51,499 bases of DNA from Deltaproteobacteria bacterium. GTDB lineage: Bacteria; Desulfobacterota; Desulfobaccia; Desulfobaccales; 0-14-0-80-60-11. The number at the start of each line of letters is the position of its first letter. Position 1 is the stretch's first letter. The notes below the pieces were generated by a model, which was given only the letters and a program-made list of their open reading frames with translations, did no database searches and was not told where the DNA came from. The stretch is taken from contig JAKAKP010000077.1 of assembly GCA_021813445.1 (NCBI GenBank), forward strand, positions 1 to 51,499, read 5' to 3'. The translations under genes and the position numbers were made by a program. This document shows positions 1,367 to 19,500 of this stretch, in pieces.

Positions 1367-1453
1367 GCCGAAGTGGCGGAATCGGGAGACGCGCTAGGTT
1401 CAGGGTCTAGTGGGGGTATCCCCGTCGGGGTTCAAGTCCCCGCTTCGGCACCA
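1367..1453 (+). tRNA. tRNA-Leu (anticodon CAG)
   Basis: The acceptor arms GCCGAAG (1367-1373) and CTTCGGC (1443-1449) pair perfectly and are followed by A and an encoded CCA. The anticodon arm is CTAGG-TTCAGGG-TCTAG, placing CAG at positions 34-36. A long variable arm built from GGGG/CCCC and a T-arm with GTTCAAGTC make this a class II tRNA, as expected for leucine. It decodes CUG, a major codon in GC-rich genomes. It is transcribed divergently from ribF. Confidence 0.95.
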
Positions 1454-2478: not shown

Positions 2479-5142
2479 TTAATAAGCCACGCCTCGCAGT
2501 CGCGCAGCAAAGTAGCGGCAGAAATTGATGGCAATTTGGGGGTAGATCTTCATCATCTCTTGAAAATGTCGATGATGAATGATCAACGCCTCGGTAGGCT
2601 CCGCGGTGACGCAGGTGGCGTTGGCAGGCATCTGGGTAAACAGGCTCAGTTCCCCAATATAGGTGCCATTGCCGATGGTGGCCGCGAGCTCTTCATTACT
2701 GCGGCCATAATTGCGGGAGACCTTAATTTTGCCCTTAACTATTAAGATGATGACCGAGTTATCCTGTCCTTCCCTTAAGAGGACTTCGCCGGTTTTGTAG
2801 GACATTGGCCCGCTGATCGTGGCAATGGCTTGCAATTCCCGGATACTCAAGCCCGCAAATAAATCGAACCCTTGCAGATGATGGATTATTTCCAGCAGAT
2901 TCGGCACAGCCACCTCCTTCCCTGCACAACGAGATAAAGCATATCTGGCCGTTTCCCGGGTCATGGAGTCTGCATCCGTCAACAGCATTTCCGCCAGAGG
3001 GTAAAATATCATTCCCGGGGTATGGGCGCCGATGGCAAAGGCCGCCAGCATCCTGGTGGTTGGGTCCTGGCTGATTACCAGATGGGCGATGACCCCGGCC
3101 AAATCATCGGCTCGCACCAGCAGCATGAGTCGGCGGCCCTGGGAAATCTTTGCAGTTATTGGCATTTCGCCAATTAAGGGGATCAAATAATTAGCCAGAT
3201 TCCGGTTCAGCAATTCTTCCACCATTTCGACGGCTATGGCAGACTGGTGGGAATGTAAGGCGCCATACATCAGGCGCATGTCATCATAAGTGACCCAGAG
3301 GGCATGAAAAATAACGTCAAGGATTTCCTGGTTCTTCTCCATCAGGTGGGTTTTCAGTAAATCCACCGCCTGGGATTTGGGAAACCTGGAAAGGGCCTCA
3401 ATAAAAATCAGGTTATTATAGGTATCCCGCACGTGGTGGTGCATGTATGGGGAGATATCAAAATCTTTTAATTTTGCCAGCCGCAGGACTTCGAGGATGC
3501 CCTTCTGGCGTCTCCAGGTACTGTTAAGCAACCCTACTTCCAGAAAACTGGTGATCTGTTCTCCAAAGCCGGCCAGGGCCTCAATGGCAGCCTTACGCAC
3601 CGTTTCCTGATCATCCAGGAGCCTGAGCAGTTCTCCCACCGCCCTTAAGTCGGGATGATTGATGAAGAAAATGGCGGCTTCCGCCCTGGTGGCGGGGCTG
3701 TCGTCATGGAGCAGTTTCAAAGCGATATCCGGCGTCAGGCCCGGAGTAGGGTTAATCTCGGCCTCCCCCGGCTGACTCTTGACCAGATCCAGGTCCTGCA
3801 TCCGGGGGTGGGTCAGGTAATTTTCCCCGGTGGAAGAAGCCTCCAGCAAGTTAAGGCCATCACTATCTTCAACGATTACCTGTTTTAATCCATGATAATA
3901 TTGGCGCACAAAAATTACGGTTTCCACAGTCAGATAAAGGGCCAGGACCGCAGCCAGGGGCGCCAGGTATTCCGGGGGAAACAGCGGCTTTAAAGTCCAG
4001 AGGAGCAAGGCCCCCGCCATCATCCCAGCCTTGACCACCGCCCCCCGGAGAAACACCCGGCTCCATTGGGAAATCTTCTGGGGCAGGAGGTTAAACAGAA
4101 TCTTGTTGACCGGACCGTTGAGTACTCTTTGAATAATAACAGTAGTGAATTGCCCATACGCGGCGACAAAGATATTATAATAAAAAGTCAACGCTCCAAA
4201 GATTAAGGTAAAGTTGATGGGAGCTATCAAAGAAGTTCTGGATATTCCCATTCTGGCATAAAATTTTCCCACCAGCCACAAGGCCAGAAATACCGCCAAA
4301 GTCATAGAGCCGCGGAAATATCCCAAAAAGGAAATGAGTGTTTGTTCAGTACCGAAGGTACTGTTGGCCAAGAGGCTGAATTGATAGGTCAGGATCGGCA
4401 GCAAAATATTGGGAATCAAGGCGCAAATGAACAGGTAGCGGAAGATAGGATATTGTTTGATAATGGCCGGCACTTCCCGCAGCTTCCGGTCGGGAACCGC
4501 AATCACGGCCGGATTGGCGGAAGTTTGGTCTAAATAGCGGCGGGATGAAATAACCAGAAAGATGGCAATGAGCAGAAACGAGGCGGCAAAGATGATTAAG
4601 GAAAAATCGTCGCCGAATTCCCGGATCAGGGGTTTGGTGGTAAAGTTGCCCAAGGTGCTGCCCAATACCTGGGCCCCCATAATCAGGTGAAAAATCCGTT
4701 TCCCCTGACTGGCGCTGAAGAGATCCCCGGCAATATTCCAGAGATACACCAGGAAAATGGAGTCTTGCAGGTAGAGGAGCTGAAAGAGAAGGGGGTAGGA
4801 AATGGAGAAGTCGGCTTTGACCAGGAAGTAAATTCCCAGCAAAGAGACGAAATAAAAGGTTAAGAAGCCGGCCAAGAGATTCTCGTTGCGAAATTTGCTC
4901 CAAAAACGGTGCATCACCCCAAAGATGAAAAAGCTGATAACGCCGTTGATCACAAACATCAGCGGCATTTGCACCACCCCGTAACGTTTGAAAAAAGTAG
5001 TGTCAACGTAGTTGCGAAAGACGGCGCTGACAAAATAAAGGGAGAAAAAAATCAGGGAGATCCAGATGAAGCGGGCGGACTCATATTCGTAAACATGCAG
5101 CTTCGCCAGCAGATAATTTTTAAGGGCCTGCACTTGACTCAT
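2479..5142 (-). CDS. Multi-pass transporter fused to HEAT repeats and a cyclic-nucleotide-binding fold
   Basis: The 887-residue protein has three parts. Residues 1 to about 430 form roughly ten to twelve hydrophobic segments resembling MFS or ATP/ADP-translocase-like carriers. Residues about 470-745 are alpha-helical HEAT-type repeats (for example [19 protein letters not shown]). From about 755 to the end is a cNMP-binding fold ([21 protein letters not shown]). In the phosphate-binding cassette the usual PRAAT reads PANAT, so the ligand-contacting arginine is missing. The substrate is unknown. The fusion suggests a transporter gated by, or anchored through, a cytoplasmic sensor (inference). 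No strong ribosome binding site precedes the ATG at 5142. gpmA follows 13 bp downstream. Confidence 0.8.
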
Positions 5143-5579
5143 AATAGGTAATATTCGCAGTAAAGGAGATTATACATAAGACGCAAGGTGATTTTAAAAC
5201 AGGGCTTGCTCAAGTTGTAACGGTAGATCAACTTCTCCCGCCATCCCTGCCAAGCCCGGGGTGAGCCGCCGGGCCGTCTGGTTTCCCCTTCCCCCCGTCC
5301 CTCAAGCCTTTATCGGTAATTCTTTCAGTTTGCAGTAAGCTCCTGGAAAAAGGAGGCCCACCTGCTTTTGCCCTGCAGAAAGAGCTGAAAGCCTGACCTT
5401 TGGAATATTTTTGCCCCAGGTTGAAGGGGATCCCGAATTAGATTTAGCATCTACCCCCTGATCGTGCTACCATGAGCCCCAAGCCGCGAGTTATAACCCG
5501 CGATTTTCCCAAGAGTTCCACAGTATTCCACGCAAATTCCAAAAACCTGGGGCCATTGTACCAAAGGCAGGAGGTCAAT
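5143..5579. other. Divergent intergenic region
   Basis: This region separates the transporter gene (minus) from the glycosyltransferase gene (plus). It should hold promoters for both, but I see no convincing -35/-10 pair. A GC-rich block lies at about 5240-5300. The reading frame of the glycosyltransferase is open back to an ATG at 5472, but that part has no ribosome binding site and no recognisable protein signal. No RNA gene is recognised. Confidence 0.4.
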
Positions 5580-6806
5580 TTGTCCGGGAAGATCAAACGT
5601 CTCTTATTTTATACCCACAACTCCATTGGCCATGGGCACGCCTTTCGCACCCTGGCAATAATCAGCGGCATGCGGCGGTGGCGTCCGGACCTGGATTTTC
5701 TCGTAGTGTCGGGGTCTTCGGTGCCCCAGATATTTTTTGACGAAGGCATCGAAGTGGTCAAACTGCCGGGAATAAAAATAGACTTTGACAACCAGGTCAA
5801 TCCCTTGCAGCCCCGGTATCTGAAAAGCCTGGAGGTGGATAAGATATTTGCCTTCAGAATGCAAGTCATCCAGGATACCTTTGCTTTTTTTGAACCCCAG
5901 GCGTTGTTCATCGAACATTATATGGCCGGATTGATGAATGAAGCCCTGCCTTTGATACTTAAAAAGAGACTGCGACGGGAACAACCCACGGATTTTGCCC
6001 TGGTCCACCTTTCCCGGGACATTATGCGGGGCGCGCCCAACCTCTTCATCCCCTACCAAACGCCCAGTGATCAACCCGAAGGCGTAAATATAGCCCTAAA
6101 TTTCGATTTTATCTATGTTTTGGACGATGCTCGCAATATTGATTTTAACCGGGAAGTCTTGGGAAATAACCCGGAATTGGCAAACAGGATTCATTACCTT
6201 GGAGGAGTCACCATTAAGACCCGGGAAGAGTTGCCTGATCGCCAGGAAGTATTAAGGCATTTTAATCTCGGAACAGAGCCGCTCATTCTCGTCTCCCTGG
6301 GGCGCCATGGTAAAATAGTGGAAATGTTACGTCAACTTCTATCTGGTTTTGATCGCTTGAGCTTCACCAAAGATTATCAGATCGTCCTCATTGTTGATCC
6401 CTATCTGGAAGACTCCACCATTAGCTCCCTCAAATCTGACACCCTGGCAGACCGGATCCATTTTCTGCCGTTTAAATCGAACCTGATAGATTTAATAAAT
6501 ATTGCCGAACTGGTGGTCTGCCGGGCCGGCTACAACACCATCAACGAAATTCTGCTGACCGGCGCCCGGGCCCTGGTCATCCCCGAGCGCCACCCCAGTC
6601 AGGAGCAGGAACGCCGGGCCAGTTCCATCCCTTTAGATAATGTGGCCGTAGTAACTGAGGAAGAGGTGCTGGACAGCCAAATAGAGAAGATCATCTCGGA
6701 ACTGTTGCAAAGACCCGCTACTCCTCTAAATTACCGCTTTGATAAATACGCCATCGGCCGCCGCATCATCACTGACCTGGAGGGGTGGAAAGCAGCACAT
6801 CTGTGA
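5580..6806 (+). CDS. MurG-like (GT28/GT-B fold) glycosyltransferase
   Basis: A predicted GT-B glycosyltransferase. The N-terminal half begins RLLFYTHNSIGHGHAFR, where GHGHAFR matches the glycine/histidine acceptor loop of the MurG/GT28 group. The C-terminal half has VSLGRHGK and then CRAGYNTINEILLTGARAL followed by HPSQEQERR, the nucleotide-sugar binding pattern of the GT28 C-terminal domain. The start is set at TTG 5580 because AGGAGG lies five bases before it and the protein core begins at once. An ATG at 5472 would add 36 residues without a binding site. Product length is 408 residues. It opens a cluster of glycan-related genes. Donor and acceptor are unknown. Confidence 0.72.
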   Translation: MSGKIKRLLFYTHNSIGHGHAFRTLAIISGMRRWRPDLDFLVVSGSSVPQIFFDEGIEVVKLPGIKIDFDNQVNPLQPRYLKSLEVDKIFAFRMQVIQDTFAFFEPQALFIEHYMAGLMNEALPLILKKRLRREQPTDFALVHLSRDIMRGAPNLFIPYQTPSDQPEGVNIALNFDFIYVLDDARNIDFNREVLGNNPELANRIHYLGGVTIKTREELPDRQEVLRHFNLGTEPLILVSLGRHGKIVEMLRQLLSGFDRLSFTKDYQIVLIVDPYLEDSTISSLKSDTLADRIHFLPFKSNLIDLINIAELVVCRAGYNTINEILLTGARALVIPERHPSQEQERRASSIPLDNVAVVTEEEVLDSQIEKIISELLQRPATPLNYRFDKYAIGRRIITDLEGWKAAHL

Positions 6807-6816
6807 AAATTAACCG

Positions 6817-6845
6817 TGTAGGGGCGAACCCAGGCGTCCGCCCCA
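6817..6845. repeat. GTAGGGGCG dispersed hairpin repeat, copy 1
   Basis: GTAGGGGCG followed by a short loop and CGCCCC forms a 6-bp stem. Related copies lie at 45184-45210 (same strand) and 35074-35099 (opposite strand). It sits in the 101-bp gap between two convergent genes and may double as a terminator. Confidence 0.6.
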
Positions 6846-6907
6846 GACGCGGGGGCATACCGTCTGCTTTCGGTAACAGATAATTTTAGCCTTGTAACGG
6901 TATAGTA

Positions 6908-8347
6908 TTAAAAGTCAGAAGTCAGTGGCGGGAAGGTTTTCCGTCTTAAGCGGCCCAGCCTATTTTTCTCTTTAACCACCGCCTCGATCTGCTCGGAGAT
7001 TTCCCGGAATCTTGGGGCCGTTATCTCCGGGCAGAAATGGTTGGCCGGACTTTGGTGGTAATATAGAGAAGGGTCGTAATTATCATCAATGAGGTGCTGG
7101 GCCCGGCAATACTCAAAGGCCTCAGTGCCGGGGTAGGGAGTAAAGATGCTATAGATTACTTTGTCGCAATCAAGGCTGCGGATGACCTCCAGGGTATCTT
7201 TTAGGGTCCTCTCATTTTCCTGGGGGAACCCGGCCATGAAAAATGTCTCCAGACTGATGCCCTGCTGGCTAACTAGCTGGCAGGCGGCTTTTGCTTCTTC
7301 GATGGTAAAACCTTTTCTTATCTGTCTCAATATCTCATTATTGCCGGATTCTATTCCCAATTGAATCCTAGAGCACCCCGCCTCTCGCATCAGCTTGATA
7401 TTGGCCGCGGTTACCAGGTTGACGTGGATTTCGCAACTCCAGGGCAGGCCCGGACCACGTTCTTTGATTTCTGTGACCAAGGCCCGGAGATATCCGGGAT
7501 TTACTCCAAAGGTGTCATCATCGAAATGGATGGCTTGACCCCCGCTTTCCTGGAGCAGCCGCATTTCTCTGATCACATTTTCGGGGGACCTGAACCTGAC
7601 TCTTTTCCCCCAGACCCCCTTAGAATTACAAAAAAAGCAATTGTAAGGACAGCCCCGGGTGGCGAAGATGCGGCTAAACGCGGACCGGGGATAACGCTGA
7701 TAATCATGAAGGACTTCCGGGGCAAATTGGGCGGGAAAGGCGAGAGCATCTAAGTCATCGAGGAATTCCCGGGGAGCAGTGATAGCTGCTGCCTCCCTCT
7801 GGCGATAGACCAGCCCCCGGACCCGGCCAAGGTTGCCCCCGTCTTCCAGGGAGGCGAGCAGTTCCACCAGGGTTTTCTCCCCTTCCCCCATAACGCCAAC
7901 GTCGATGTCATTATGGGCCAGAATCTCTTGCCCCATTTGCGTGGGGTGGGGGCCGCCCAAGACCACCAGGATGTCAGCGCTCACTTCCTTAGCGATTTTA
8001 GCCACCTGCCGGGCCGCGGCAAAGTTGGCTGATTTCGCGGAAATGCCAATGACGGTGGGCAGATAGGCGGCAATAACGGCCTTAATCTCTTGCCAGATAT
8101 CAGCCGATGAATCATGCAACCTTTCCTGATAATGGGTAAAACCATATTTGGTGAAATAAGCTGCTTCGAAGGGGTCGCTTGCCGGCAAAAAGTCGCTATT
8201 GAAAACCACCACTTCCCAATCACTTTGCGTCTTGACCGCCGCAGCCAGGTAACCTAAAGATAAGGGATAGTGGACCAGGGCATAGGTGTCTTTGAAGAGG
8301 CGATAAAAAGGCGGTTCTATTAATAAAAGCCGTTGACCTGGGCCCAT
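6908..8347 (-). CDS. B12-binding-domain radical SAM protein
   Basis: The 479-residue protein has an N-terminal cobalamin-binding Rossmann region (IEPPFYR near residue 10, LVVLGGPHPTQ near residue 128). A radical SAM core follows with the cluster motif CPYNCFFC, Cys233, Cys237 and Cys240. GIESGNNEILRQIRKG and FMAGFPQENERTL are further radical SAM signatures. Members of this BchE-like class often methylate unactivated carbon or do other radical chemistry; the substrate cannot be read from sequence. AGGTGA precedes the ATG at 8347. It is divergent from the heparinase-like gene with only 37 AT-rich bases between them, so the two may share a control region. A role in modifying a glycan or lipid made by this cluster is inference. 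Confidence 0.85.
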   Translation of the reverse strand: MGPGQRLLLIEPPFYRLFKDTYALVHYPLSLGYLAAAVKTQSDWEVVVFNSDFLPASDPFEAAYFTKYGFTHYQERLHDSSADIWQEIKAVIAAYLPTVIGISAKSANFAAARQVAKIAKEVSADILVVLGGPHPTQMGQEILAHNDIDVGVMGEGEKTLVELLASLEDGGNLGRVRGLVYRQREAAAITAPREFLDDLDALAFPAQFAPEVLHDYQRYPRSAFSRIFATRGCPYNCFFCNSKGVWGKRVRFRSPENVIREMRLLQESGGQAIHFDDDTFGVNPGYLRALVTEIKERGPGLPWSCEIHVNLVTAANIKLMREAGCSRIQLGIESGNNEILRQIRKGFTIEEAKAACQLVSQQGISLETFFMAGFPQENERTLKDTLEVIRSLDCDKVIYSIFTPYPGTEAFEYCRAQHLIDDNYDPSLYYHQSPANHFCPEITAPRFREISEQIEAVVKEKNRLGRLRRKTFPPLTSDF

Positions 8348-8384
8348 TGATCACCTGTATGTTATTAAAATAATTAATTATAGC

Positions 8385-10640
8385 ATGCGAGACCCACAAC
8401 TGCCATCAGATGATTTCTTACGAGATGCGGTATTATACCGGGAGGATCTTTTCGGACCCGCGGAATTTGCCCCGTTGGCCGGGGCTTGCCGGGCCGGTGC
8501 AGCCGTGGTTTTTACCGGGCTTAAACAGATCACCCTGCACTTGCCCTGCCCTCACTCCGACCTGTCCCGCTTCAATCAATTAACCATCAGGGTCTGCAAT
8601 CACGCCTATACACCTTTATTGGCCGGAGTTAGGCTCATTCATGGAAACCGGGCTGCCACCTCTTTTTCCGGGGGGCGGGAAGAATTTCCTCCCGGCCAAT
8701 GGTGCGAAATGCATTTTCCCCGGGAATGCTTCGGCATCACCGGCCACCCGGACGGCTGGCAAGACGTCAGGGCCCTGGAGATCTTTTTTGCCCAGGAAAA
8801 GACGGCTGCCCGGGATCAGGAAATTAGCGTTGCCCTTAAGGGTATTGCCGGTGAGCTCCGTCGTCTGCCCCCGGGCCCCAGGTTGACGGAGTCCGGCCTG
8901 CGAGAGCAGCTTGTTGGAGAGGCTGGGGATACTGAGCCGTTGTTGAAGAGATTACTCTCCCCGGCCAAATCCTGGGGGCCTTATGGGCCGGAGAATATTG
9001 CCAGCCGCATTCCCCCGCCCCATTTTTATCCGCAAGGGACGGCCGCGGACATCCTGGCCGGCCGTATCATGGGGCAGCAATTGCCGGCGCCCCTCTCCTG
9101 GGACGCCAACCCTCTGGGCGAGCTGGAATGGTGCCATTTTCTGCATCGCCACCATTTCCTGCGCCTTCTGGTACGGGCTTATCTGGCCACCGGCCAGGAA
9201 GACTATGTCGCCGCTTTGGATGAGCTGCTGCAAAGCTGGATTTTGGCTAATCCCGTGCCCTTGGCCTCCAACGGCGGGGCGGGGCCGGCCTGGGAAACCC
9301 TGTCCATTGCCTGGCGGCTGCGGGAATGGCTGTGGATCATGGGGCTGGCCTGGTCCAGTCCTGCCTTCTCCCGGGCCACCAAGGTCCTGATGCTCCGCTC
9401 CCTTTGGGAACAGGCCGCCAGCCTGATGGACCACCAGGGCCACCCCAATAATTGGCGCATCGTCGAGTCCGCGGCGCTGGCGCTTTTGGGTCTGTGTCTG
9501 CCCGAATTTCGCCTGGCCCTGGAGTGGCGGGACGCCGGCCTCAGGCGGTTGGAACGGGAATATCACCAGCAATTCGGGGCAGACGGAGTGCATCGGGAAA
9601 TGTCGCCCCTCTACCACGCCATTTGTCTTCACGCCTTGCTGGAAGTCAAAGAAGCGGCCGGGGTTCAGGGCCTGGAGCTGCCGGATTTATTTGGCAAACC
9701 CCTGGAGCGGGGTTTCGATTATCTCCTGGCCTTATGCCGCCCGGACTTTACCTGGCCCTCCCTGAACGACTCCGGCGGCCTGGACTCCGATTTCACCGCC
9801 TTAATGTCCAAAGCCGGGGAGAGCTTGCAGCGTCCGGACCTTCTCTGGTGCGGCAGCCGGGGCAGGCGCGGGCGGCCTCCCGAATTTTCCTCCCGGGTCT
9901 TCCCGGACGCGGGGCTCGCCATCATGCGCTCCAGTTATGCGGCCCGGGCCAATTATCTCCTCTTGCGGGCCGGACCGCCGGGCCTGGCCCACAGCCACCA
10001 GGACGCGCTCTCCCTGGAGATAGCCGCCGGGGGCGCGGCCTGCCTGGTGGACCCGGGCATCAGCCGTTATGCCCCCGGCCTTTTAACGGATTATTACCGC
10101 TCCGCCGCGGCCCACAATATGCCCCTGCCGGATGGGGCGGCGCCGGATTATGCCTCCCTGAATTTTTCGCAAAGGGTCAAACCTCCGGGGGAGAAACTCT
10201 CCTGGAGTTTGGCCGGGCCCCTGGAGATGGCCGCCGGGGTCTTTGACGGCCCCTGGGAGCCGGGCCTAAGCGGAGTTGCACTGTCCCGCACCGTTATCTG
10301 CGCGCGCCAGGAGTACTGGATTGTCAGGGATATGATCAGCGGCCAGGGGCGGCATCAGGTCAGGGTAGGCTGGCAATTTGCGCCGGGAAAATTGGTGATG
10401 CCTGAACATCAACGTTTTCTTGACTACTTGGACCGCCATAACCTTCTCCGGCTGCGGCTCATCCCCATCACCGTCTCGGCCAAACCGGCAATAGAGATTC
10501 TTGAAGGCTCCCTTGAACCTCCCGGAGGTTGGGTCTCCCGGGGCGGCCAGGACTACCCGGCGCCCCAGGCCCGATACACCTGGGACGCGGAACTGCCCTG
10601 CTCCCTGGTCTGGGTCCTGTTGCCGATTTCTCCAGATTAG
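8385..10640 (+). CDS. Heparinase II/III-like protein
   Basis: A 751-residue protein with the layout of heparinase II/III and alginate-lyase family enzymes: an alpha/alpha-toroid region around residues 240-470 (NPLGELEWCHFLHRHHFL, NNWRIVESAALALLGL) and a beta-rich region with SHQDALSLEIAAGG at about residue 536. No signal peptide or membrane segment is seen at the N-terminus, unlike many secreted lyases. In glycan-assembly clusters such proteins often act on newly made polymer (family knowledge); the polymer here is unknown. Its TAG overlaps the TAA of the convergent radical SAM gene by sharing TTAG (10637-10640). No Shine-Dalgarno is obvious before the ATG. Confidence 0.78.
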   Translation: MRDPQLPSDDFLRDAVLYREDLFGPAEFAPLAGACRAGAAVVFTGLKQITLHLPCPHSDLSRFNQLTIRVCNHAYTPLLAGVRLIHGNRAATSFSGGREEFPPGQWCEMHFPRECFGITGHPDGWQDVRALEIFFAQEKTAARDQEISVALKGIAGELRRLPPGPRLTESGLREQLVGEAGDTEPLLKRLLSPAKSWGPYGPENIASRIPPPHFYPQGTAADILAGRIMGQQLPAPLSWDANPLGELEWCHFLHRHHFLRLLVRAYLATGQEDYVAALDELLQSWILANPVPLASNGGAGPAWETLSIAWRLREWLWIMGLAWSSPAFSRATKVLMLRSLWEQAASLMDHQGHPNNWRIVESAALALLGLCLPEFRLALEWRDAGLRRLEREYHQQFGADGVHREMSPLYHAICLHALLEVKEAAGVQGLELPDLFGKPLERGFDYLLALCRPDFTWPSLNDSGGLDSDFTALMSKAGESLQRPDLLWCGSRGRRGRPPEFSSRVFPDAGLAIMRSSYAARANYLLLRAGPPGLAHSHQDALSLEIAAGGAACLVDPGISRYAPGLLTDYYRSAAAHNMPLPDGAAPDYASLNFSQRVKPPGEKLSWSLAGPLEMAAGVFDGPWEPGLSGVALSRTVICARQEYWIVRDMISGQGRHQVRVGWQFAPGKLVMPEHQRFLDYLDRHNLLRLRLIPITVSAKPAIEILEGSLEPPGGWVSRGGQDYPAPQARYTWDAELPCSLVWVLLPISPD

Positions 10641-12142
10641 AGGTACTCCCCCCAGGGGGGCCGGTGCGCGTCGATCTCTGCCAAAACCGCCGCCAAAATC
10701 TCCCCGTGCTTCCGGTTGCGCCGGGCAATGGCCGGGGCCTCCAAGCCATTCACTTCCGAGAAAATATACGCCTCCCGGTCCAGAGCACTGCCCGGAGCCC
10801 GGGTCAGGTCTTGGAGGCCAAAGGCCCCGGGGTCCTCGAAGAGGCGGGATTGGGGCTCCAGCAAGAAGCGCATGGGCATAAAGTAAACATCGTCGCAGCC
10901 GCGATAGTGTTGCACCAATCGGATCAAGGCCTGCAAATCCGCCTCGGTCTCATGGGGGGTGTTGTACATAAAATGGATATAGTTCTTGATGCCTGCGGCC
11001 CGGGAAGCGTCAATAATTTCGCGGACTTGCGCCACCTGGAAGCCCTTGCCTAAAAAGTCTACGGTGGGTTGATGGGCGGACTCCAGGCCCCAGAACAGGC
11101 TCATACACCCCGCCCGGGCGGCCATTTGCAGCAACTCCGGGGTAAAACCCCGGATGCGGGCATAGGCGTACCAGCGAATCTCCGGCAGTTCTTGGGGGAG
11201 CCGCCGGCAGACCGCCGCGAGTTGCCGGGGACTGCCGTTAATGGCCGCGTCGGCAAACATGAACGCGGACGAGCCGTAACAGGCAGAGAGGCCCTGAAGC
11301 TCCACCATAATTTTGTCCACCGGCTTTAAACTGTAGCGATCCACCAGGCAGCCGGTGCAAAAACTGCATTGGGAGGGACAGCCCCTGGAGAAGCGGTAAG
11401 GCAGAAAAAGGGTTTGGGGGCCGGTTACCGGATGGTCATAGCGGTAGGCGTCCAGGGACAGGCCCGCGAAATCGGGGGGCCTTTCCCGGGACGCGGCCAG
11501 CCGGGAGGTGGGATTGACCTTAAGTTCCACACCGGCGAAGTAAACCAGGCCAGGGATATCCGCCAGGCGGGTGCTCCCTAAGTGGGCATGCCGCCGGTAG
11601 AGGGCCAGCAGCGGCGCTTCGCCGCTGCCCTTGATCCAGTAATCCGCCAAACCGTATCTGGTAATCCCGGCCGGAGGCCTGATGGTGATGAAGGGGCCGC
11701 CGAAGACGATGGTGGCCGCGGGCTGGAGAGCCCGCAAGCGTTTAGCCAGAATCAGGGCCCCCCAGAACTGGTGATAGGAGATAATGGAAAAGGCATAAAT
11801 CCCGGAGTCAAGATCGAGACGCCGGATATATCTATCAGCAAAGGCTGCCAGGCGGGAGCTGCCGCTGCTCCCCTCCAGATAAGAGAAGAGTTCCGTCTCT
11901 GGGAAGGTGTTTTCCGGGTGGTGGAAATCCGGAGCCTCGGGAAAATCATAAAGATAATCCGGGAGAAAGTCGTGTTGGATCACCGGCACCTGGTGTTCTT
12001 TGAGGTAGCTAGAGAGAACCGCCATGCCGTAGGGCAGAAAGCGGGTGGGAAGAAAGCGCTTGCTGACGGCAGGGGGGTGGATCAGGATCAACGGCGGACC
12101 TGCGGCGGCAGCAAGCTTGGGGACGGGGTGATTGGCCTGCAT
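10637..12142 (-). CDS. B12-binding-domain radical SAM protein, second copy
   Basis: The protein has 501 residues. The N-terminal cobalamin-binding region includes ILIHPPAVSKRFLPTRFLPYG and ATIVFGGPFIT (about residue 143). The cluster motif is CPSQCSFC, with Cys255, Cys259 and Cys262, preceded by RFSRG. FWGLESAHQPTVDFLGKGF is a later radical SAM core signature. It is only distantly similar to the copy at 6908-8347, so this does not look like a recent duplication. It lies downstream of the GSCFA-methyltransferase-glycosyltransferase run on the same strand, separated by a 214-bp gap with a large inverted repeat. Substrate unknown. Confidence 0.85.
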   Translation of the reverse strand: MQANHPVPKLAAAAGPPLILIHPPAVSKRFLPTRFLPYGMAVLSSYLKEHQVPVIQHDFLPDYLYDFPEAPDFHHPENTFPETELFSYLEGSSGSSRLAAFADRYIRRLDLDSGIYAFSIISYHQFWGALILAKRLRALQPAATIVFGGPFITIRPPAGITRYGLADYWIKGSGEAPLLALYRRHAHLGSTRLADIPGLVYFAGVELKVNPTSRLAASRERPPDFAGLSLDAYRYDHPVTGPQTLFLPYRFSRGCPSQCSFCTGCLVDRYSLKPVDKIMVELQGLSACYGSSAFMFADAAINGSPRQLAAVCRRLPQELPEIRWYAYARIRGFTPELLQMAARAGCMSLFWGLESAHQPTVDFLGKGFQVAQVREIIDASRAAGIKNYIHFMYNTPHETEADLQALIRLVQHYRGCDDVYFMPMRFLLEPQSRLFEDPGAFGLQDLTRAPGSALDREAYIFSEVNGLEAPAIARRNRKHGEILAAVLAEIDAHRPPWGEYL

Positions 12143-12218
12143 CGGTAATCCAGTGTCGCTCTTCGTAGACAGTATGGCCTTTAATAAGGCGAAAACCCAA
12201 GTTCACAGGGTCTTAAAG

Positions 12219-12296
12219 TCCCCCTTTGAAAAAGGGGGATTTAGGGGGAGTTTGGGGACTTACTTAAATCCCCCCAGCCCCCTTTTTCAAAGGGGA
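12219..12296. repeat. Inverted-repeat element rich in CCCCC/GGGGG
   Basis: The left arm (12219-12250) and right arm (12265-12296) share CCCCTTTGAAAAAGGGGG in opposite orientations, with the flanking GGATTTA block in a different order in each arm. Each arm is itself a small palindrome (CCCCTTT...AAAGGGGG). Sequences of this type are common dispersed repeats in many bacteria. It divides the GSCFA gene from the downstream radical SAM gene and could terminate transcription or be a mobile palindrome. Confidence 0.75.
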
Positions 12297-12356
12297 GAAT
12301 AAAACCAAAGATTTTCAATCTCTTGGCAATTATGAATTGCCTTACCCTCAAAAGAA

Positions 12357-13307
12357 TCAATCCACATAAAAGCTGAAAAATTGTTGCATGATGAACTCGA
12401 TGGTCTCCTGATTGACGTGGAAATTTTCCCGGCCCCCGGCCCAGATCGATTGGCCCCGCAGGGTCCGGTAGATGGTGGCCATTTCGAACGCAGGGAAATA
12501 AAAGACATTATCATGGCGCGCGCTGAATTCATCCACCACTGCCCGCAAGGTGGCTTTGGAGCTGCAACTGGCGCTGATCACGTCGACATCCGGGCGGAAG
12601 GTGGCCCATAAATGCACGGGGGAGACGGTGAGCAGCAGGCGGCAGCCGGGATTATGGGCCGCCAGCAACTGCTGGAGGCGTTCCAGGTTATGGAGATTCT
12701 CCTCATAACGGCTGACCCGGAAGCGATACCGGCCCAGGTCGCCCCCTTCATTCACATACGGGCCGGAAGGCAGACAGATAACCGCGCCGTCCACCTGATC
12801 TTCCCAAATCTCGGTGAGCCCCAGGGTCAGGATCAGGACTTGGGCTTCCTCCAGGACCTGGCGGGAGTAGCGGCGATGCCTGGCGAAATCCGCCTCGGCC
12901 TCGCTCAGAGAATCATAAAGGATGATGCGGCGGTAGGGGTCTTGAATCTTCCGGGAAACCGGGGAGGTCCACCAGCGCAGGTCAGGCTGCCAATCTCCAA
13001 AGGTATATTCGAAAATCTGGCGCAGGCAGAAGGTATTGTAAACCCGCTCCCAGGCGGCGCTGCCATGCTTGGCCGCAGGGTGCTCCAGTTCTCTGGCGAT
13101 ATATGAAAAGCCCTCCCGGAGCAGGATATTTTTTATCTCCCGGGCGAAACAGGAACCCAGGGAGGCGATGGGAGTTTGCCGGGTCAGGCGGAGACCCGTC
13201 TGCGGGGGCCGGGGATAAGCATCAGCCGCCGGAGGATTATCATAAGAACCGGGCCAGACCTGCCAGGGTTCGAAAAGATGGACGGGATGCACATCCGAAC
13301 GGGCCAT
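12357..13307 (-). CDS. GSCFA-domain protein
   Basis: The 316-residue protein carries the family-naming motif GSCFA at residues 51-55, followed by REIKNILLREGF. Further conserved parts are YNTFCLRQIFEYTFG and ILTLGLTEIWED, and later VSPVHLWATF. GSCFA proteins are related to SGNH-type esterases, and the serine of GSCFA is the likely nucleophile (family knowledge). A de-acetylase or acyl-transfer role on a glycan is inference from context. AAGGA precedes the ATG at 13307. The stop of the methyltransferase gene lies 12 bp upstream, so the two are one operon. Confidence 0.85.
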   Translation of the reverse strand: MARSDVHPVHLFEPWQVWPGSYDNPPAADAYPRPPQTGLRLTRQTPIASLGSCFAREIKNILLREGFSYIARELEHPAAKHGSAAWERVYNTFCLRQIFEYTFGDWQPDLRWWTSPVSRKIQDPYRRIILYDSLSEAEADFARHRRYSRQVLEEAQVLILTLGLTEIWEDQVDGAVICLPSGPYVNEGGDLGRYRFRVSRYEENLHNLERLQQLLAAHNPGCRLLLTVSPVHLWATFRPDVDVISASCSSKATLRAVVDEFSARHDNVFYFPAFEMATIYRTLRGQSIWAGGRENFHVNQETIEFIMQQFFSFYVD

Positions 13308-13319
13308 GTTCCTTCCTTT

Positions 13320-14108
13320 TCAGTAAGTCGCGGCTTTAATGATAATATTCCACCCCAGCCGGTTAAAAGGCCATATCCGCCCCAGCACCCGGTCCAGCCA
13401 ACTCAGAGAGTCAAACCGGATAAACTGTTTGGGGGAAGAAGCCGGCGCGGGGAATTTATAGGGCACGAGATAGGCCGCACGCCAGGCCACCGGCCGCAAA
13501 CCGGCCCGCTCTAATTTGCGCCCCAGGCTGGCCGGGTTGTAAAATCGCAGGTGGGTGGGATCCCAACCCCACCAATCCTGGTTCTGACACCATACCCGGT
13601 GATAGTTCCCCTGGAACAGGTAATTGAGGGAGCAGGAATTTTGGGTGGACAAGATCAGATAGCCGCGCTCTGCCAGGGATTGTGCGGCGTTAGCCAGCAG
13701 TTCCTGATCATCTTCTACATGCTCGATCACATCTTTCAATAAAACCAGATCGAATCTGGTCTGCAAAGAGGCAGCCGGGAATTTCTCGCTTTCCAGGAGC
13801 TGGCACCGGTCTTCCAGGCCTTCCTGCTGCAAAAAATAGCGGGCGGTGGCCAGGACCATCGGCTCCGCATCAACGCCCACCACCAGGCTCGCGGCCTGCC
13901 GGGCCGCGTGCACCAGGAACCTGCCCCCGCCGCAGCCATAATCCAGGAAGCTCCGGCCCCGTAAATCTCCCAGCAGCTCCTCAATGTGGGCATTCTTCAC
14001 CCGGCTGTAGGCCTTGCCTTGCTGCTCCAGGTAGACCGCCAACGCCCTGGCCGGTTCAGATGACCGCAGCCAGTGGTTTACCGGGTAGATTTTGCGGTTG
14101 GTTGCCAT
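13320..14108 (-). CDS. Class I SAM-dependent methyltransferase
   Basis: The 262-residue protein has SAM motif I as FLDYGCGGGRFL (residues 54-65), an acidic motif II VGVDAEP, and the DVIEHVEDDQELL block typical of the Methyltransf_23/UbiG-like group. The C-terminal half contains THLRFYNPASLGRKLERAGL, also usual in polysaccharide-cluster methyltransferases. The start at 14108 lies directly after the upstream stop (TAAGATG). The frame stays open further upstream, but that would overlap the whole end of the glycosyltransferase gene. It probably methylates a sugar or lipid-linked intermediate (inference). Confidence 0.85.
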   Translation of the reverse strand: MATNRKIYPVNHWLRSSEPARALAVYLEQQGKAYSRVKNAHIEELLGDLRGRSFLDYGCGGGRFLVHAARQAASLVVGVDAEPMVLATARYFLQQEGLEDRCQLLESEKFPAASLQTRFDLVLLKDVIEHVEDDQELLANAAQSLAERGYLILSTQNSCSLNYLFQGNYHRVWCQNQDWWGWDPTHLRFYNPASLGRKLERAGLRPVAWRAAYLVPYKFPAPASSPKQFIRFDSLSWLDRVLGRIWPFNRLGWNIIIKAATY

Positions 14109-14109
14109 C

Positions 14110-15297
14110 TTAAAAATATAGGAACCGCCGATATACGGCGGCCCAGGCGGCCTGCTCCCGCGGGGGCGAAAAATCTCCCATGCGCCTTCTGGCCGCGGCC
14201 CCCAAGGACGCGGCCCAACCTGGATTTCCCAGAAGTTCGCCAATGGCCTGGGCCAGGGACCGGGAATCCCCCCAGGGCACCAACAGCCCGGACACGCGAT
14301 CCTCCAGCAGCACTGCATTGGCGCCGGTCCGGGTAGCCACGCAAGGCACCCCATTGGCCATGGCCTCCATGAGGATATTGGGGCAACCTTCGGAAACGGA
14401 GGGCAACACAAAGACGTCCAGTGACCTGAGCCACTCCTGGATTTGCAGATGTGGCAGGGGCCCCCGGAACTTAACCCTGGGGCCGCTTCCGGTGCGCTGG
14501 AGCATGGCCGCGAACACCGGCTTTTCTTCCTCCCGGAGGCCGCCCACGAGTTCCAATTCCCCCTCCTGCTCCCGGAGCACAGCGGCAAAGGCCTTCAACA
14601 GATAGGGCAAGCCTTTGGCATACTTAAAGATGCCGGCGCATCCAAGGCGGAACTGCTCCCGCCGTTCCCGGGGCTGCCAGGCGGCAACCGGAATCGCCAC
14701 GGAATTATAAATGATCTGGGCCTTGTGACTGATGGGGGCCAGGGCCTGGGCCTGATCCAGCAGGTCCTGGCTCAGGGCCACCACGTAATCGGCGTTTTCC
14801 AGGCCGCTGCGGCAGACCGCCACCTTTTCGGGACTGAAGAAGTATTTCTTGACGTCATTGCCCAGAAGGGTGGCGATGCAGGGGATGTTCATTCTCCTGG
14901 CCAACAGGCCGGTAAGATAACCCAAGGGGTAAAGGAAAAAAGAATGCAAGAGGCTGAATTGCTCTTGCTGGTGGAGCATTTCCAGGGAGTGGTAGATCAT
15001 CTGCAGGGTCAAGGTATGGGGGCAATCCCAGAGCTGCCGGGGCGTATCCCCCATCTTTTCCCGCCCCACGGTAATCTGATGCACCTTCACCTGGCCATGC
15101 TCCCGGACCCGGCGGTTCTCGTCCAACAGCACCAGGGCCTCAGCCGTTACCTGGAAGTGGGCCACATGCACCTGCAAGCCCAAAGCCGCCATCTGCGCCG
15201 CCACCTGAGCCACGGTCCGGGCCAGCCCCCCCCATTGCTCCGGGGGAAATTCTGGAGTTATGAGGCAAATTTTTATATCTTTTCCGGAAGGACCCAT
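14110..15297 (-). CDS. GT4-family glycosyltransferase
   Basis: The 395-residue retaining GT-B enzyme opens with ICLITPEFPPEQWGGLARTV, the usual N-terminal acceptor-side strand and glycine loop. The C-terminal domain has LGCAGIFKYAKGLPYLLKAF and then VLPSVSEGCPNILMEAMANG, the E-x7-E type nucleotide-sugar site of family GT4. It heads a minus-strand operon with the methyltransferase and GSCFA genes. A 39-bp gap separates it from the divergent glycosyltransferase gene on the plus strand. Confidence 0.9.
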   Translation of the reverse strand: MGPSGKDIKICLITPEFPPEQWGGLARTVAQVAAQMAALGLQVHVAHFQVTAEALVLLDENRRVREHGQVKVHQITVGREKMGDTPRQLWDCPHTLTLQMIYHSLEMLHQQEQFSLLHSFFLYPLGYLTGLLARRMNIPCIATLLGNDVKKYFFSPEKVAVCRSGLENADYVVALSQDLLDQAQALAPISHKAQIIYNSVAIPVAAWQPRERREQFRLGCAGIFKYAKGLPYLLKAFAAVLREQEGELELVGGLREEEKPVFAAMLQRTGSGPRVKFRGPLPHLQIQEWLRSLDVFVLPSVSEGCPNILMEAMANGVPCVATRTGANAVLLEDRVSGLLVPWGDSRSLAQAIGELLGNPGWAASLGAAARRRMGDFSPPREQAAWAAVYRRFLYF

Positions 15298-15336
15298 ATT
15301 CTAGGTTCCTGAATTACTATTAAGGGTATGCGTACC

Positions 15337-16371
15337 ATGCGCGTCGGCCTGGTTTTTCACAAGAATCCCCTGGCTCCGCCCACCAGCATTGATCTGATCA
15401 GACTGCGGGCCATCTCCCAGGGATTAATCCATTTGGGCCTGGAGGTGGAAATCATTGCCCCCATTGCCACAGATAGTCTGCTGGCAGAGACGATCCCGGT
15501 CCGGCCTCTAAAGGTCTTGAATAATAAAGGGTATTTTCATATGCTCAAGACCTGTTACCACCCTTCCATCAGGCTCATTGACGCCTACCAGGGACCGGTG
15601 GTCAGCCGCCTGGTCCGGGTGGTGGATGAGCAATGGCCCGAACGGGACCAGGCTTCCCGCGGGGAATTATTGGCCTGCCAGGAGTTGATCCGCTCGAGGG
15701 CCGCGGCCCTGGTGTTTAATAATCAGGAAAACCTGCAACGCTGGCGGCAAATCTATGGGGCCCGGATACCGGCCATTATCGTGCCCAGCGGCTGTCCGGC
15801 CCACATCCCGCCTCCCCGGAAAAATCCCTTCTCCCCTTCCCTGCCGGTTCTCCTGTTCCTGGGCTCCCTGGCTGCGCCCCGCATGCTGCAAATGTTAAAT
15901 GAGCTGGCGGTCAGGTTGCAAGGCCGGGTTGAGCTCCATTTTATTGGCAGAAATAAAGCGGCCATGTATGGCGGTTCCCCTGACCAGAAGCTGCATCCCC
16001 TGATTGTGGACCATGGGGAAATTCAGGAAAATGAGATCTGGGATTACCTTAGAAACGCTGCCATTGGCCTGGCGCTGGCCACCGGACCCCACCCCTTTGA
16101 TAACGATGTTTCCAAGATTCTCTATTACTTACGGGGAGGCCTGCCTGTCATATCGGAAGAACCCATACTCAACAATAATCTTATCCGGGAAACCGGCTGG
16201 GGACAAATCTTTCGCCATGGCGATCTGGATGACCTGGAAGATAAGACGAACCTCATCTTGGCAGGCCGGTTAGCCACTAAGAAGGAAATCGTGATGGAAT
16301 TCATGGCAACGCATCATTCCTGGGATCAAAGGGCAGAGACCTTTCGGCAGTTCTTCCAGCGTTGGAACTAA
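15337..16371 (+). CDS. Glycosyltransferase, GT4-like
   Basis: The 344-residue protein begins MRVGLVFHKNPLAPPTSIDL, a GT-B N-terminal strand with an extended substrate loop. The C-terminal half has PVLLFLGSLAAPRMLQML, LHFIGRNK and then DNDVSKILYYLRGGLPVIS in place of the usual E-x7-E region. It is therefore a divergent member. AAGGG lies 10 bp before the ATG at 15337 and only 1 bp before an earlier in-frame ATG at 15328, so 15337 is preferred. It is divergent from the GT4 operon. Sugar specificity is unknown. Confidence 0.75.
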   Translation: MRVGLVFHKNPLAPPTSIDLIRLRAISQGLIHLGLEVEIIAPIATDSLLAETIPVRPLKVLNNKGYFHMLKTCYHPSIRLIDAYQGPVVSRLVRVVDEQWPERDQASRGELLACQELIRSRAAALVFNNQENLQRWRQIYGARIPAIIVPSGCPAHIPPPRKNPFSPSLPVLLFLGSLAAPRMLQMLNELAVRLQGRVELHFIGRNKAAMYGGSPDQKLHPLIVDHGEIQENEIWDYLRNAAIGLALATGPHPFDNDVSKILYYLRGGLPVISEEPILNNNLIRETGWGQIFRHGDLDDLEDKTNLILAGRLATKKEIVMEFMATHHSWDQRAETFRQFFQRWN

Positions 16372-16436
16372 CTATTTCTCAAAAACCCGCACACAAGTCA
16401 GGGCAAATTGAGACCTCTGTGAAAATCCTCTAACTT

Positions 16437-16507
16437 GTCATTCTGAATCTCAGAGGTGCCAATAAAAAACGAGAGTCTTCACTGCGCGGCGCTCCGTTCA
16501 GAATGAC
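16437..16507. repeat. GTCATTCTGA inverted-repeat element, copy 1
   Basis: GTCATTCTGAA (16437-16447) and TTCAGAATGAC (16497-16507) are perfect 11-bp inverted arms around a 49-bp centre. A related copy is at 45556-45625. It lies in the 160-bp gap between the plus-strand glycosyltransferase and the minus-strand RND permease, where it may help terminate both. Confidence 0.75.
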
Positions 16508-16531
16508 GTAACTTGTGTTTTCGTATAGATT

Positions 16532-19500
16532 TCACCTTCTTAAACGTAATCGCTTAAACCAGAGCCGCAAGCGGTCCAGGTAAAGATAGATCACCGGGGT
16601 GGTATAAAGCGTCAGCATTTGACTGAAGATCAAGCCCCCGACAATGGAGATGCCCAGGGGCCGGCGCACCTCGGAGCCCACCCCGGTGCCGATGGCCATG
16701 GGCAGGGCCCCCAAGAGTGCGGCCATGGTGGTCATCAAGATGGGGCGGAAGCGCAACAGACACGCTTCCAGGATCGCTTCATCAGGCCTTTTCCCTTCAT
16801 GGCGTTCCAACTGCAAGGCAAAATCGACCATCAAGATCCCGTTTTTCTTCACGATGCCGATCAGCAGGATCATGCCGATAATGGCCAGGAGGCTGAAATC
16901 CAGGCCGCAGAGAAGCAAAGCCACCAGCGCCCCCACCCCTGCGGAAGGCAAGGTGGAAAGGATGGTAATGGGGTGGATGTAGCTTTCATACAAGATCCCC
17001 AGCACGATATAGACCGCCAAAATCGCCAATATGATCAGCAGCGGCTCATTGGCCAGGGAAGACTTGAAGGCCTTGGCCGCGCCCTGAAAGGTCCCCCTGA
17101 TGCCGGCTGGCAGCCGCAGTTGGTTGACGGCGGCCTCTACAGCCTCCACCGCCTCTCCCAAGGCTGCGCCCGCGGCCAGGTTAAAGGAAATGGTGACCGC
17201 GGGAACCGCTCCCAGATGTTTCACCGAAAGGGGGGTGTTGGCGGGCTGGAAACGGGTGAACGCGCTCAAAGGCACCTCGGCGCCGTTGGCTGATTTAACA
17301 TAGAGCTCTCTTAGTATTTCCGGGTATTGCCAATATTTCGGGGCCACCTCCATCACTACATGGTGCTGGATGAGTGGATAGTAAATAACCGAGACCTGAC
17401 GCTGCCCGAACGCGTCATATAAGGTATCATCGATGAGCTGGGCGGAAATGCCCAGCCTCGACGCGGTGTCCCGGTCGATTACCACCGAGGTCTGCAAGCC
17501 CTTATCCTGCAGATCGCTGTTCACGTCGGCCAATTGCGGCAAGGCCCGCATTGCTTGCAGAACTCTGGGCCCCCAGAGATTCAAATCATCGACGTTTTCT
17601 CCTTTAAGGGAAAACTGATAAAGCGCGGCGCTGGCCATGCCGCCGATGCGCAAATCCTGGACGGATTGCAGGATAGTTTGGGCGCCTGGCACGGTTGCCA
17701 ACTTTTGTCGCAACCTGCCAATTACCTCCCGAGCGCTGGCCGACCGTTCCTCAAAGGACTTCAAGGATAAAAACAGCTGGCCCGTATTGGTGGGAGACCC
17801 AGCGCCGCCGCCGCTGACTCCGCCGGTGAAGCCCACCACATCCTCCACATCCGGATCATCCCGGATCATCCCTAAAATCCGGATCAACTTGCCCCGCATC
17901 GCCTGAAAGGAGATGTCCTGGGACGCCCGGATGACCCCGGTAATCCGGCCCGAGTCCTGTTCCGGGAAGAAACCCTTGGGAATATAGTAGAATAAGGCGA
18001 CGTTCAGCACCAAAGTGAGGAGCATGACCGCCAGCATAATCCTGGGGTGCCCCAAGGCCCAGCCCAGACTGGTCTGATACTGGCGGCGCAGCCAGTCGAA
18101 CCCCCTTTCGCTGGCCCGGTAAAGCCAGCCGTGGGACAGATCTTTTTCCGGTGTGAGCAACAGGGCCGACATCATGGGGGTGGTGGTGAGGGACAGTACC
18201 AGGGAAACCAGGACGGCCGCGGAAAGCGTCATTGAGAATTCGCGAAACAAACGGCCTACCATGCCTCCCATAAATAATAGGGGAAGAAAGACCGCCACCA
18301 GGGAAACGCTCATGGACAGGACCGTGAAAGCGATTTCCCGGGAGCCCAGGATCGCCGCCTGTGTTGGGGATTCTCCCTTTTCAATATGACGACTGATGTT
18401 TTCCAACACGACCACGGCGTCATCGATGACAAAGCCGGTGGCGATGGTAAGGGCCATGAGGGAGAGATTGTCTAGACTGTAGCCGCAAAGATACATCACT
18501 CCAAAGGTGCTGATAATGGAGACCGGCACCGCCACCCCGGGGATGGCGGTGGCCCGCAATTTCCTCAAGAAAGCAAACACCACCAGAATTACCAGGAGGG
18601 CGGCGATCACCAGGGTCAGCTCCACCTCTCGGAGCGCAAGGCGGATGGGTTGGCTGCGGTCAATTACCACCGAGACCTTAATATCCTGGGGGATCGCGGC
18701 CTGCAGGAGGGGCAACGCGGTGCGGATGCTGTCCACGGTGTCGATAATGTTGGCCCCCGGGGATCTGAAGACCACGATCATCACCGCGGTCTGGCCATTC
18801 ATCAGCCCCTCCACCCGCACATCCTCCAGGGAATCCTGGACTTCGCCCACGTCCGCCAGATGCACCGGCCCTCCGTTGCGGACGGCCAGCACCAGGTCCT
18901 GGTACTGCTTGGCCTGGTAAAGTTGATCGTTGGCAGTTATTTCCCGAGCGTGAATCGCGTCAGCCAGTTGCCCCTTGGGCCGGTTTTGATTGGTGCTGCT
19001 CAAGAAGGAACGGACTTCTTCCAGGCCGATCCCATATTTGTTCAGAGCCTGCGGGTTTAACTCCACCCGCACCGCGGGCAGGGAACCGCCGCCAACCAAG
19101 GTGGTGCCCACCCCTTCCACTTGCGACAGCTTTTGCTGAAGAATGGTGGCCGCAGCGTCATACATTTCGGCCCGGCTCACCCTCTCAGAAGTGAGGGCCA
19201 AAACGAGAATCGGCGAATCAGCAGGGTTGACCTTGCGGTAAATGGGGTTGTGGGGCAGCGTGGCGGGTAAATACCGGCGGGCCGCATTAATGGCGGCCTG
19301 GACATCCCGGGCCGCGCCATCAATATTGCGGTCCAAATCAAACTGTAAAACAATGTTCGCGGTCCCCCGAAAGCTGGAGGAAGTTATCTCGGCCACTCCG
19401 GCAATGCGGCTGAATTGCCGCTCCAAGGGGGTGGTTACCGACGAAGCCATGGTTTCGGGTTCGGCTCCGGGTAAAGTCGCGGATACCTGGATGGTGGGAA

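Follow-up and report, generated by a model that had tools for sequence, protein, structure and literature searches.

The region between positions 1788 and 16371 of the window (the whole stretch of DNA that was analysed, 51,499 nucleotides) is a conserved gene module. It is clustered in several Desulfobacterota lineages, and its genes co-occur but are scattered in Desulfomonile-type genomes. We give a probability of roughly 55% to the reading that this module serves the cytoplasmic synthesis of a single tailored glycan or glycolipid. A group of odd neighbours would thereby become a pathway that is defined and transferable and whose gene set can be tested.

Gene content and recurrence of the module

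The initial annotation had treated eight genes between 5580 and 16371 as one unit. All eight genes are real, as are the divergent and convergent contacts (37 bp, a 4-bp overlap and 30 bp), and the genes do form a unit, but this unit was drawn too small, the genes at 2479–5142 and 1788–2465 belonging to it as well. The forward strand carries a MurG/GT28-C-type glycosyltransferase (GT28, 5580–6806), a PL12-type heparinase II/III protein (HEP, 8385–10640) and a putative GT-B-fold glycosyltransferase (GTx, 15328–16371). On the reverse strand lie a histidine phosphatase of the phosphoglycerate-mutase type (PGM, 1788–2465), a protein that joins HEAT repeats and a cNMP-binding domain to a membrane domain of the NTT/MFS fold (NTT, 2479–5142) and that PGM follows after about 13 bp, a B12-binding radical SAM enzyme (rSAM1, 6908–8347), a second, divergent B12-type radical SAM enzyme (rSAM2, 10637–12142), a GSCFA-family SGNH-type protein (12357–13307), a SAM methyltransferase of the Methyltransf_23 family (MT, 13320–14108) and a glycosyltransferase of family 4 (GT4, 14110–15297). 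A perfect inverted repeat with 18-nt arms and a 39-nt spacer is situated between rSAM2 and the GSCFA gene (12221–12295). The open reading frame of GT28 (5472–6806) opens with an ATG at 5472; homologues align from about 5580, and the TTG at 5580, which has a good ribosome-binding site, is the likely start, as the initial annotation had placed it.

The proteins of the window and their left neighbours were compared by tblastn with the loci around distant GSCFA homologues. NTT and PGM were found to recur together with the other module genes. NTT, GT28, rSAM1, a histidine phosphatase, HEP, GSCFA, MT, GT4 and GTx recur in about 12 distant Desulfobacterota clusters from several families (G273, G142, G114, G312, G244, L048, L050, L057, L064, L069, L070 and G408), with all or almost all of the set present as far as the contig reaches. 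Gene order and orientation differ between the clusters, but local pairs are kept: HEP is divergent from rSAM1 or from HisP, a shorter histidine phosphatase, GT4 lies with MT, and GTx stands beside NTT or GT4. In the Desulfomonile-type genomes HEP is isolated within housekeeping genes, HisP, MT, GT4 and GTx are adjacent, and orthologues of GSCFA, GT28 and GTx are present in nearly all of these genomes, on other contigs or far off. Scattering of the genes in relatives, which had been named as an argument against a joint pathway, thus does occur; the genes nevertheless stay in the same genome, and this supports a shared function. In the f95 genomes a related cluster combines NTT, HisP, GT28 and GT4 with a BshB1-like deacetylase, a SPASM radical SAM protein and additional glycosyltransferases; this points to a core whose tailoring enzymes can be exchanged.

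Co-occurrence was assessed for each gene in the same set of 395 genomes of the phylum. Ten of them contain HEP (E below 1e-200), and nine of these ten also contain NTT (E below 1e-250). GT4 was found in the ten HEP genomes and in two f95 genomes, GSCFA in the ten HEP genomes and in G113 and G130. HEP, GT4, GSCFA and NTT therefore mark nearly identical sets of 9–12 genomes from five shared families. Pairwise hypergeometric probabilities are 1e-16 to 1e-18 with genomes as the units and about 1e-6 to 1e-8 with families as the units; the thresholds for strong matches were chosen after the gap between strong and weak matches had been seen, and kinship is only partly removed, but five families are represented among the genomes. 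A chance neighbourhood was rejected on the basis of this co-occurrence. The joint glycan or glycolipid pathway that had been proposed for these genes thus gains support from the recurrence of the gene set and from its co-occurrence even when scattered.

No genes for nucleotide-sugar synthesis, for a lipid carrier or for uronate formation are present in the module, and a search of the literature for this combination of genes turned up no described system that has it. An anti-phage defence island was also considered and rejected, the PADLOC models giving only weak partial matches of common domains.

Properties of the module proteins

Both radical SAM proteins contain a CxxxCxxC motif (at residue 233 in rSAM1) and they are only 24% identical to each other. 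rSAM1 matches the Pfam B12-binding and Radical_SAM domains with 69 and 90 bits, respectively. In rSAM2 the radical SAM core is above its Pfam cut-off, whereas the B12-binding domain stays below it (25.3 versus 32.1 bits). The two unlike B12 radical SAM proteins of the initial annotation are thus present, but they are not equal partners. No cluster that covers the position of rSAM1 lacks this gene; rSAM2 was seen in the window and, with 51% identity, in G244, but nowhere else, which makes it an optional addition to the module. A tblastn search for rSAM2 on plasmids gave only superfamily matches of 21–30%. With a cut-off of 1e-80 rSAM1 had appeared to be absent from the Desulfomonile-type genomes. 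This had to be revised, as a divergent rSAM1-like gene adjoins GTx in L210–L212; it is a distant relative of rSAM1, scoring 255–272 bits compared to 714–841 bits for full-length ones.

A tie of the radical SAM proteins to tetrapyrrole or hopanoid metabolism, which had been named as a finding that would speak against a glycan pathway, was rejected, neither protein reaching the NCBIfam equivalog cut-offs of HpnJ, BchE or HpnR (578, 481 and 650 bits). rSAM1 scores 166, 173 and 94 bits in these models, and rSAM2 41, 63 and 22 bits. HpnJ, which is among the nearest named families of rSAM1, acts on a lipid-linked amino sugar (PMC12583986) and thereby shows that such a substrate is accessible to radical SAM enzymes of its type. 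The hopanoid cyclitol-ether pathway of HpnI, HpnK and HpnJ resembles the module in combining a glycosyltransferase with a radical SAM enzyme. It differs in that rSAM1 is far below the HpnJ cut-off and that the module has different glycosyltransferases and no hopanoid genes. A B12 radical SAM family gains a likely sugar substrate from this context.

HEP matches Hepar_II_III_N with 140 bits, and its alignment with heparinase III covers some 520 residues (173 bits); with the NCBIfam model HepC it stays below the cut-off (115 versus 700 bits). Its residues N356, Y410 and H536 correspond to Asn240, Tyr294 and His424 of HepIII, the catalytic residues of that enzyme (PMC12088678), and are invariant in 29 of 29 sequences. 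Although HEP keeps the Asn/Tyr/His set of the PL12 heparinase III of Pedobacter heparinus (PDB 4MMH), it lies within a glycosyltransferase cluster, and no signal peptide was seen, a hydropathy scan showing no N-terminal hydrophobic segment. The active site of a PL12-type lyase would thus stand in the cytoplasm and in what appears to be a biosynthetic context. The human C5-epimerase DS-epi1 has the same lyase fold and is proposed to use His205, Tyr261 and Tyr473 (PMC8006597). Since HEP has an Asn-Tyr-His set instead of His-Tyr-Tyr, its residues somewhat favour lyase chemistry over epimerisation. A catabolic role of HEP is conceivable and would speak against the biosynthetic reading.

The GSCFA protein scores 154 bits against a Pfam cut-off of 25, and its catalytic-type residues, Ser52 and, in an E/D-x-x-His arrangement, Glu294 and His297, are kept in 26 of 26 sequences. 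A review of SGNH proteins from 2022 gives no function for GSCFA proteins (PMC9487903), which gain a metabolic context here; a Pseudomonas natural-product cluster also has a GSCFA gene of unknown role (PMC12828459). GTx matches no Pfam or NCBIfam family. The structure predicted for it (pLDDT 90.6, pTM 0.88) has a GT-B/GT4 fold, and the fold matches include MshA and PimA, both near the top, and the methylmannose polysaccharide mannosyltransferase; judged from this model, GTx is a GT-B glycosyltransferase. The phosphatase position is occupied either by the PGM type or by the shorter HisP type, which belongs to another subfamily, and never by both in one cluster. It looks as if one enzyme had been exchanged for another that does the same task. 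The PGM of the window is above the NCBIfam equivalog cut-off for GpmA (341 versus 305 bits), but its homologues in the clusters L037 and L070 are below it (222 and 210 bits), and therefore the role in the module may be that of a phosphatase rather than a mutase.

Apart from NTT, the module has no integral membrane protein. In a model of moderate quality (pLDDT 75, one good model of five), its membrane half is closest to the ATP/ADP translocators AtNTT1 and Chlamydia NTT1, with a TM-score of 0.73 and 13–14% identity. Compared to these translocators, the closest solved fold, the module protein has additional HEAT and cNMP-binding domains and is conserved within a glycan module. NTT-family transporters carry nucleotides, and we know of no glycan transporter with the NTT fold. 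NTT might serve in export of the product, in import of a precursor or in nucleotide sensing. Among the recurrent module genes of the clusters seen, no Wzx/Wzy flippase or polymerase and no ABC exporter was found. The initial annotation had overlooked the phosphatase and the NTT/MFS transporter, and its statement that a polymer export gene is missing is perhaps too strong.

The proposed pathway and its alternatives

The product of the module would most likely be a uronate-containing oligosaccharide or glycolipid that is assembled and tailored in the cytoplasm; the role of each tailoring step, the radical SAM chemistry, and transport by NTT and its direction are given here as we infer them. GT28, GT4 and GTx would attach sugars to an acceptor, and the histidine phosphatase would take a phosphate off an intermediate. 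MT may O-methylate the sugars, GSCFA may attach or remove an acyl group, and HEP may cut or epimerise at a uronate via abstraction of the C5 proton. rSAM1, joined here by rSAM2, would alter an unactivated sugar carbon by C-methylation, deoxygenation or ring rearrangement. The NTT/MFS protein, under control of its cNMP-binding domain, would be the inner-membrane carrier of the product or of a precursor. A more specific version, a new glycolipid pathway in which a PL12-type enzyme, a GSCFA acyltransferase and B12 radical SAM enzymes tailor a glycan in the cytoplasm and the cyclic-nucleotide-controlled NTT-fold protein then flips it in place of a Wzx or ABC transporter, seems unlikely to us as a whole. 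If NTT were the exit route, this would be a new role for the NTT transporter fold.

The module could alternatively make a soluble, never exported intracellular storage or methylated oligosaccharide, which we regard as possible but doubtful. The mycobacterial methylglucose and methylmannose polysaccharide pathways likewise combine glycosyltransferases and a methyltransferase with a PGM-like phosphatase and an enzyme that degrades the product in the cytosol. All module enzymes are predicted to be soluble and to lack a signal peptide, a PGM or HisP phosphatase is conserved, the methylmannose polysaccharide mannosyltransferase is found among the fold matches of GTx, and HEP might recycle a polymer. 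However, the membrane transporter NTT is as well conserved as the enzymes, no GpgS-like or MmpH-like gene was found, and enzyme orthology with the mycobacterial pathways is not indicated. These pathways have no GSCFA protein and no transporter, and to our knowledge B12 radical SAM enzymes do not take part in them.

The composition of glycosyltransferases, methyltransferase and GSCFA would also suit an ordinary locus for a cell-surface polysaccharide or for LPS decoration, with a Wzx/Wzy or ABC exporter elsewhere in the genome and with HEP as a C5-epimerase or a trimming lyase during assembly. The lyase fold of DS-epi1 (PMC8006597) agrees with such an epimerase, but HEP has the PL12 residue set and not the one proposed for DS-epi1, and no such exporter is among the conserved members in the clusters seen; we consider this explanation improbable. 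The intact PL12 active site of HEP would also agree with a locus for the catabolism or salvage of uronate-containing oligosaccharides, which NTT would import and HEP would degrade as a lyase. Three glycosyltransferases and a methyltransferase are not expected in this case, no hydrolase, sulfatase, sugar kinase or uronate-degradation gene is present in the module, and GT4 and GTx accompany HEP also in genomes where they are not linked to it, making this explanation very improbable.

Probable horizontal gain of the module

HEP is absent from the 21 other family members examined, six of them from the same genus, and elsewhere in the class only weak heparinase homologues were found. GT28 shows the same pattern of absence within the family. 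A conserved locus of the window's own lineage was consequently rejected. The left edge of the module adjoins a tRNA-Leu(CAG) gene (1367–1453, forward strand), and tRNA genes are a common kind of integration site; a direct repeat of the tRNA end that could mark an island boundary was not found elsewhere in the window. Gene trees gave no consistent sister for the window copies, the donor lineage being poorly resolved with weak support. The genome of the window probably gained the module horizontally beside the tRNA-Leu gene, and the distribution of the pathway fits one functional pathway that has spread horizontally.

Features at the edge of and within the module

The left edge of the module is adjoined by a tRNA-Leu(CAG) gene (window 1367-1453); tRNA genes are a frequent type of integration site. 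An inverted repeat, CCCCTTTGAAAAAGGGGG, was found at window 12221-12295, inside the 214-bp intergenic gap between rSAM2 and GSCFA. Its 18-nt arms match perfectly and are separated by a 39-nt spacer; in appearance it resembles the small palindromic elements that occur dispersed in genomes.

GSCFA homologues in other settings

The GSCFA protein of L035 (genome G130) shares 71% identity with that of the window, and its gene surroundings differ. The region at 5664-17508 encodes a TPR protein, a PP2C phosphatase and a Ser/Thr kinase-FGE fusion, followed by GT28-type genes, GT4, a histidine phosphatase, a deacetylase-like protein and an aminotransferase. This gene set is possibly a second GSCFA pathway. 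In L034 (G328, 16246-18690) the neighbours of GSCFA are a radical SAM protein of the B12 type and a protein of 317 aa that weakly matches the RiPP model 'Frankia_peptide'.

Other versions of the cluster

The related cluster in L207 and L208 (G296, G368) comprises a BshB1-like deacetylase, GT4, GT28, a SPASM radical SAM protein, a histidine phosphatase, GT2 and NTT; it contains neither HEP nor GSCFA nor a B12-type radical SAM protein. L057 carries a typical Desulfobacterota version on a contig labelled Thermoleophilia, which is probably mis-binned.
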